Assembly (NCBI GenBank): GCA_037200525.1
Contig: JBBCGG010000001.1
Span: forward strand, 3,588,501 to 3,652,500
DNA length: 64,000 nucleotides
Direction of reading: 5' to 3'
Source: Methylocella sp.
GTDB taxonomy: Bacteria > Pseudomonadota > Alphaproteobacteria > Rhizobiales > Beijerinckiaceae
Shown here: positions 23,711 to 25,257 of the stretch, in pieces
How the letters are laid out: each line of letters begins with the position of its first letter
Position numbering within the stretch: the first letter of the stretch is position 1
Notes under the pieces: generated by a model
What the model saw: the letters and a program-made list of their open reading frames with translations, nothing else
Told to the model about the DNA's origin: nothing
Databases searched by the model: none
Made by a program: the position numbers and the translations under genes

Positions 23711-25060
23711 CTATTTGTCCTCCATTCGAACAATCTCTTCGCTTCCTTTTGCGGTGCCCATAATCCGTCGCCCAATCAGGTTCACCGCGTCCTGAAGCGG
23801 ATCCCCCGACAGGTGCGTGTAGCGCTCTGTTGTGCGCGCGCTCGCGTGGCCCAAAAGCTTCCCGATGAGGAAAAGACTTGCGCCGTCTGCGATTGCAAAG
23901 CTAGCGAACGAATGTCGGAGGTCATGAATGCGGAGCCCCGGTAACACCGCCTTGGCCGAAGCTTTAGCGAAGGCGCGTCGAAGCCCGATCGCGTGCCCTT
24001 CGCCGCGGGCGGCCGGAAAGACGAATTGGTGGCGTACTGCCAGATTGCCATCTTCGGCTGCTACCTTGGCCGCCAGCTCGAGTTCCTCATGGCGCTTCTC
24101 GATTATTTGAAGCGCTGGTGGCGAAAGAGGAATGCGGCGATCGCCTGTTTTTCCACCGGCTTTAGTACGTTCGGGCGGCAGGATGAGCAACTTGCGGTCC
24201 GCATCGACCTCAGACCATCTAAGTCCGAGAATTTCTGTCTTGCGAGCGCCAGTCAGGAGCAGGAGCCGCAATGCGTCAGCGAACACGTCCGACATCTCGC
24301 CGAACGACTGAAGCTCAGCGATGGGGTCGAGTAATCTTTCCGCCTCTTCCTCAGAGAGAAAGCGCTCACGCACCGGCGCGCGCGGAAGCTTGACGGCAAC
24401 AAAAGAGTTCGATTCGCACATCCCATGCTCGACGCCCCAAGCGAACATAGCCGCGGCCACGTTCCGTGTTCGTCGCGCAACTTCCTCGCCGCCGGTGATG
24501 CGAGCGCGCCCACGCGGACCAGTCCGCTCATCTTTTGCGGTCTTCCCTTTTGCGATGTCTCGGACGGCGAGCGCGGCGTCAGTCTTGCTCACGGCGTTTG
24601 CCATTTTGCGCCCAAGAAGGGGACGAATATGACGATTCAAATTCGAGGCATCGATCTCCCAGGTGCTTGCACGCTTGGCCGGTTTCGTGGCGGGCCCATC
24701 AGCCAGGTAACGGTCGATTAAATCATTGACCGTGAATGCTGCCTTGGCTGCTTTCTTTTTGGCGCCGGGATCTTGACCGTTCCGAGCTAGACGAAGCGTT
24801 TCTGCCGCCTCCTTTCGCGCCTCATCAGGAGTCCAAGGCGACCCATGTTCTCCTATCGTATGAAAGCATTGTAGACGGCCAACCCGGCACTTGACGGCAT
24901 ATACTTTTCGCCCCGTCGGATAGACGCGAAGCAAAAAACCCTTGAGATCTCTATCCCATATTCGAGCCTCGCCATCGGCGGGCACCGCAATCGCATCAAC
25001 AGCCCGCTTCGTTATCCTTGTCTTGACAGCATCCACTGCATTCTCCCGGTATCGACTCAA
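23711..25060 (-). CDS. Tyrosine integrase of genomic island (DUF4102 type)
   Basis: 449 aa. The N-terminal DUF4102 domain is visible (TKRAVDAIAVPADGEARIWD, GFLLRVYPTGRKVYAV), as in P4-like island integrases. Catalytic residues: Arg in LLLTGARKTEILGLRW, HxxR in LRIHDLRHSFASFAI, and Tyr in HASARTTERYTHL. The gene reads away from a tRNA-Ala(GGC) 3' fragment that begins about 150 bases beyond its start, the usual place for an integrase and its attachment site. It would integrate and excise the island. The ATG at 25060 is plausible; a GTG inside VDAVKTRIT is an alternative start. Confidence 0.9.
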   Translation of the reverse strand: MSRYRENAVDAVKTRITKRAVDAIAVPADGEARIWDRDLKGFLLRVYPTGRKVYAVKCRVGRLQCFHTIGEHGSPWTPDEARKEAAETLRLARNGQDPGAKKKAAKAAFTVNDLIDRYLADGPATKPAKRASTWEIDASNLNRHIRPLLGRKMANAVSKTDAALAVRDIAKGKTAKDERTGPRGRARITGGEEVARRTRNVAAAMFAWGVEHGMCESNSFVAVKLPRAPVRERFLSEEEAERLLDPIAELQSFGEMSDVFADALRLLLLTGARKTEILGLRWSEVDADRKLLILPPERTKAGGKTGDRRIPLSPPALQIIEKRHEELELAAKVAAEDGNLAVRHQFVFPAARGEGHAIGLRRAFAKASAKAVLPGLRIHDLRHSFASFAIADGASLFLIGKLLGHASARTTERYTHLSGDPLQDAVNLIGRRIMGTAKGSEEIVRMEDK

Positions 25061-25210
25061 TTATCCGATACCGCATCGATACCACGAGAAAAGAAATCTG
25101 ATAATACATGGTGACTCGCTGAACTGATTTCATACGGAAAATATAGTAATAACAGATGATTAGGAACGACGAGGAAACAAGAGGAAGCAGCGGGAAATCA
25201 ATCACCCTTA

Positions 25211-25257
25211 CAATGGCATTGAAGAGGTCGTCGGTTCGATTCCGTCTGGCTCCACCA
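25211..25257 (+). other. attachment site: 3' fragment of tRNA-Ala(GGC)
   Basis: The text matches tRNA-Ala(GGC) from the anticodon loop to CCA: loop ATGGCAT with anticodon GGC, then AAGAGGTC, T-loop TTCGATT, acceptor strand TGGCTCC, A and CCA. The 5' half is absent; only the last two bases before the loop still fit the stem. The T-stem has one T-T mismatch. Crossover at the anticodon loop is a known habit of tyrosine integrases. This marks one edge of the island whose integrase is beside it; the intact tRNA gene should be at the other end. Confidence 0.78.

Follow-up and report, generated by a model that had tools for sequence, protein, structure and literature searches.

Does the 3′ fragment of a tRNA gene next to an integrase mark the edge of a genomic island, and where do the island and the native chromosome then begin? 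This question was raised by a 64,000-nt stretch of a single 5.24-Mb contig (G000:C1:3588501-3652500, hereafter the window), in which a first-pass annotation had described a tRNA-Ala(GGC) 3′ fragment without a 5′ half beside an integrase. The position and description of this fragment were borne out: it occupies 25211-25257 (+ strand) and comprises 47 bases corresponding to tRNA positions 30-76, from the anticodon loop to CCA, with no 5′ half. No complete tRNA gene was found by ARAGORN in the window. A 25-base stretch of the fragment occurred once in the window at ≤3 mismatches and in none of 100 dinucleotide shuffles. Rfam, run over the whole window and at E values up to 5 around this fragment and a second tRNA-like place described below, returned no tRNA match, which is uninformative as half genes may escape.

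The annotation had predicted that the left attachment site, comprising an intact tRNA-Ala(GGC) and a matching repeat, would lie left of position 1, and both were found approximately 20.5 kb outside the window. The intact gene (G000:C1:3568006-3568081) is on the + strand, like the fragment, which lies 45,676 bp downstream of it and matches it at 47/47 bases. Sequence directly upstream of these 47 bases diverges and the shared sequence starts in the anticodon arm, which fits the expected crossover in the anticodon loop. Searching the genome with the tRNA retrieved the intact gene, the fragment, a weak match at 3622394 (window 33894) and a gene at 3705957, identified as tRNA-Ala(CGC) by ARAGORN. 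Among these hits the sole intact tRNA-Ala(GGC) adjoins the island; a copy free of island DNA, which the annotation had named as evidence against an island, was not among them.

The integrase ORF (23711-25060, − strand) is complete and open up to a TTG codon at 25060, and judging from relatives the gene probably starts at the GTG at 25036 (23711-25036). This places the fragment 150 (TTG) or 174 (GTG) bases from the integrase start, in agreement with the earlier estimate of about 150. The earlier designation as P4-type also agrees with the Pfam domains, Arm-DNA-bind_3 (PF13356) followed by Phage_integrase (PF00589). Residues R273, K300, H379, R382, H405 and Y414, which we take to be the catalytic set of the tyrosine integrase, were invariant in 4/4 aligned sequences. 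The protein thus carries both domains and the conserved R, K, H, R, H and Y by which we define a P4-like tyrosine integrase, and it shares with P4-like integrases the Pfam domain order, the conserved catalytic residues and a tRNA 3′-end target. Many P4-type islands carry the integrase next to the intact tRNA, whereas here it is far from the restored tRNA, at the opposite end beside the 3′ piece; integrase sublocation was reportedly addressed by Williams in 2002. No clues to the target site came from the best integrase matches in plasmids (18 records, all <60% identity), phages (3 records) or the PDB (8 sequences, including XerA, XerC/D and HP1), nor from NCBIfam (7 families, each under its cut-off).

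A single scan of genome contigs with the integrase, of a kind that recovers close relatives only, yielded four loci. A short 42% match was set aside, leaving three related integrases (61-62% in tblastn; 62-64% identical once aligned). In all three, a tRNA-Val 3′ end lies ~180-190 bases from the integrase start, compared with 174 here. For one of them, on contig CAIVVM010000036.1 of an uncultured alphaproteobacterium MAG (G062, locus L110; integrase 64% identical), the opposite end of the element has an intact tRNA-Val(GAC), at a distance of 7.0 kb; in the other two the intact tRNA was not traced on the same contig. At one locus, L088:2766-2846, ARAGORN called a tRNA-Val that comparison shows to be a displaced 3′ piece. 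The G062 element and the island have a common layout, namely tRNA, cargo, inward-reading integrase and 3′ piece, and differ in that the former targets tRNA-Val(GAC) and has a short cargo (7 kb) with one ORF matching AAA_25. Related elements at a different tRNA thus repeat an arrangement in which ~180 bases separate a far-end integrase from the 3′ piece. It therefore seems characteristic of this group of integrases and needs to be taken into account in island mapping. In both mapped elements, pairs of GATACC follow the intact tRNA at a distance of 69-92 bases and recur immediately upstream of the integrase. In the island these are at G000:C1:3568150 and 3568161 on the left, and at window positions 25067 and 25078 on the right, together with GGTATC at 25048 (25048-25083 overall). 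The left-end blocks of the two elements are equal at 23/25 bases. The pairs at both ends are probable arm sites of the integrase, a role that we infer. More distant integrases (35-45% identical; E 1e-40 or better) occurred in 15/59 other relatives, with no clear tRNA-Ala end at the 20 loci of these 15.

Comparison with genomes lacking the island, as the annotation had proposed, revealed an empty site. In four congeners, the conserved genes to the right of the tRNA begin with that of a ROK-family kinase (39478-40446 in the window, − strand; PF00480). Orthologs at E 1e-60 or better were present in six of the 14 congeners searched, and in four of these six the distance from tRNA-Ala to ROK was only ~170, 190, 980 and 1,020 bases (G002, G014, G009 and G008, respectively), compared with ~59.9 kb in the island-bearing genome; the empty-site sequences themselves were inspected in three of the four. 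In G005 and G011 the ROK ortholog lies elsewhere, away from the tRNA-Ala gene. Left of the tRNA, a FYDLN_acid protein gene and its neighbour are conserved (~66-82%) in the relatives matching them. With conserved genes on the left and ROK close to the tRNA in congeners, the additional 59.9 kb here is made up of the 45.7-kb island and 14.2 kb to its right.

The island, the interval between the two tRNA copies, therefore spans G000:C1:3568035-3613710 (45,676 bp), and its right 25.2 kb corresponds to window positions 1-25210. The earlier assignment of the left 25 kb to a genomic island is thus upheld by the paired tRNA copies and by the empty site. We identified 45 island ORFs of ≥100 aa (greedy set) and ran 44 through Pfam, of which 30 gave matches. 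These included transposases of several types (IS4/5, IS21, IS110, DDE_3/IS630 and rve), metabolic functions (aldo/keto reductase, aldehyde and alcohol dehydrogenases, FAD oxidoreductases and one P450), a solute-binding protein, and AraC, LysR, Rrf2 and response regulators. The matches also include a neighbouring, overlapping pair of tyrosine recombinase genes (PF00589) at window 14088-16966, reminiscent of Tn554- or RIT-type sets. Pfam detected neither excisionase, conjugation or phage structural families nor relaxase and type IV secretion genes in the scanned ORFs (44 of 45, all of ≥100 aa). In base composition, the island part of the window (55-63% G+C) and the right side (58-63%) could not be told apart.

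Taken together, the two tRNA copies on the same strand, the integrase between them, the GATACC pairs, the empty site and the parallel element at tRNA-Val make it very probable (about 0.93) that an element of ~45.7 kb integrated into the anticodon loop of tRNA-Ala(GGC) by means of its own P4-like integrase. In such an event, the circular element would recombine with the anticodon loop through this tyrosine integrase, the identical 3′ half brought by the element would restore a complete tRNA gene at the left end, and the native 3′ half, now displaced, would form the right attachment site, attR, at 25211-25257, beside the integrase. The recombination itself, and any present mobility of the island, we infer. 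Weighing against integration are the lack of transfer genes in the scanned ORFs and the 35-45% integrase relatives that have no clear tRNA-Ala end. Insertion sequences abound in the region, and the 47-base piece could conceivably be a stray tRNA end moved by transposons and unrelated to the adjoining integrase. We regard this as highly improbable: the identity covers exactly the half that anticodon-loop integration would displace, on the same strand, similar arm-like pairs occur at both ends, and all three integrases at 62-64% identity have a tRNA end at nearly equal spacing.

The island integrated in this way is a regular tRNA-targeted island of a common kind, and is otherwise ordinary. In the Islander description (PMC4383910), 3,760 of 3,919 islands have a 3′ fragment and 2,083 are anticodon-centred, and the signature is an intact tRNA and a displaced 3′ fragment on one replicon, in the same orientation, 2-200 kb apart and with an integrase between. 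The present island shares the common replicon, the orientation, the integrase within the interval, the size (45.7 kb) and the anticodon-centred site, and shows no defining difference from the islands described there. To this signature we added a site empty in relatives, which was found in four of the six congeners with a ROK ortholog. Among the literature matches listed, none dealt with this island by its title or the start of its abstract. Both ends are now fixed for an island that lies only partly inside the window.

The main gain concerns the right border. The first-pass annotation had taken the DNA right of the fragment to be chromosomal, and this did not hold from the fragment onward: 14.2 kb (25258-39546) is also missing at the site in the four congeners, and the supposed chromosome thus holds that much more that is not at the site in relatives. 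Homology to the congeners' ROK end restarts at 39547-39557, and the conserved gene order is back at ~39.55 kb. The stretch is a mosaic of at least two blocks. G001, G003, G005 and G011 each have a collinear counterpart of one (25961-33079) at 71-78% DNA identity, in places apart from their tRNA-Ala genes; the other (35563-39336) was found in G005 on another contig. A SnoaL-like gene at 25374 had matches in 0/59 other relatives. Two overlapping same-strand ORFs at 35499-39462 have glycoside hydrolase matches; their relative in G005 is a single open frame of 1,367 codons, and the glycoside hydrolase gene here is therefore probably broken.

Two features of this stretch recall the island's ends. 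Immediately after the CCA of the fragment, a segment at 25258-25287 (+ strand) resembles the island's own left end, such that the two tRNA copies stay alike for 29 bases more (25/29 over 25259-25287). In register, 25/32 bases agree, a score reached by 0/2,997 random pairs. This segment was not seen at the congeners' empty sites, and at ≤3 mismatches it was absent from 396 other genomes of the order, a draw that listed no other congener. Further right, in the gap between the two blocks, is a second tRNA-like 3′ end (33893-33930, + strand), which consists of a T arm, acceptor side and CCA and is 84% identical to tRNA-Ala over 37 bases (E 2.9e-4). Its 11-base T arm is exact; followed by CCA, this T arm occurs four times in 172 kb, the others being tRNA-Ala(GGC), its fragment and tRNA-Ala(CGC). 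A source tRNA for the second end was found neither in the same genome nor among 118 others of the family. The flank of the second end matched two G026 flanks at 19/32 bases (0.0002 of 20,000 random pairs), this match being one of 36 compared pairs of flanks that are A+T-rich.

A comparable arrangement was observed in G026 (L115:7657-8438), where a second 3′ end comes 0.7 kb after an intact tRNA-Ala(GGC) and the two agree at 72/79 bases past CCA; these are apparent stacked left ends. Other tRNA-Ala 3′ ends that lack a 5′ half occur in relatives at L113:7667-7704 (G004) and L114:1134-1172 (G026), and neither stretch contained a match to the island integrase.

The left-end-like segment, the tRNA-like end between the blocks and the stacking in G026 lead us to favour the 14.2 kb being remnants of older insertions at the same site, at what we consider roughly even odds. 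Weighing against such remnants, none of the 10 ORFs in 25258-39477 matched an integrase family (Pfam), no right-hand attachment copy was found for the stretch, and its genes occur in congeners. The absence of both integrase and transposase families from the 10 ORFs scanned, together with the collinearity of 25961-33079 elsewhere in congeners at an identity in the usual range of the genus, would fit ordinary chromosome of this lineage that either moved to this place or disappeared from the four congeners; the 25/29 match would then be native flanking sequence acquired at some time by the element. This is plausible at somewhat less than even odds, but it sits poorly with the absence of the segment past CCA from the empty sites and from the other genomes of the order, with a tRNA-like 3′ end lying between the two blocks, and with the like sharing past CCA at the two tRNA-Ala 3′ ends of G026. 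Nor does a series of older insertions conform to the tandem-array rule of Islander (PMC4383910), by which each member has its own integrase and its own fragment, as the scanned ORFs of the stretch hold no integrase.

We also noticed a motif, WATCAANNNNTTR, which we take to be IHF-like, beside several tRNA ends. At ≤1 mismatch within 45 bases after CCA, it was present in 6/10 hand-picked tRNA-end flanks (row G062_337 was dropped as it has no tRNA) and in 3/27 flanks of relatives' tRNA-Ala genes, two of which (G026 and G006) were already counted in the six; the background was 0.9% of 20,000 random 45-mers. Speaking against such an association, mismatches numbered 2 at the island's own left end, and 4 and 3 at the right-of-fragment flanks in G004 and G026 contig 7, respectively. 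The motif was spotted first and counted later, so its association with tRNA ends is only suggestive. Tentatively, and with the odds against it, tRNA-Ala(GGC) could be a stacking site in this family, with three element left ends in a row (after the intact tRNA, at 25258 and at 33931), each consisting of a tRNA 3′ end and, no more than ~30 bases from CCA, an IHF-like site. If so, the motif could locate remnants of elements whose integrase has been lost.

Finally, a separate tRNA-Pro(CGG) 3′ end without a 5′ half lies left of the window (L066:17645-17710; G000:C1:3557645-3557710). Its 66 bases equal those of an intact gene and its flank (2564472-2564537) on the opposite strand, 993 kb away, and CCGCACAG-like repeats occur near both. 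Judged on these matches, the tRNA-Pro(CGG) end and the distant gene may be the two ends of one element, separated by an inversion.
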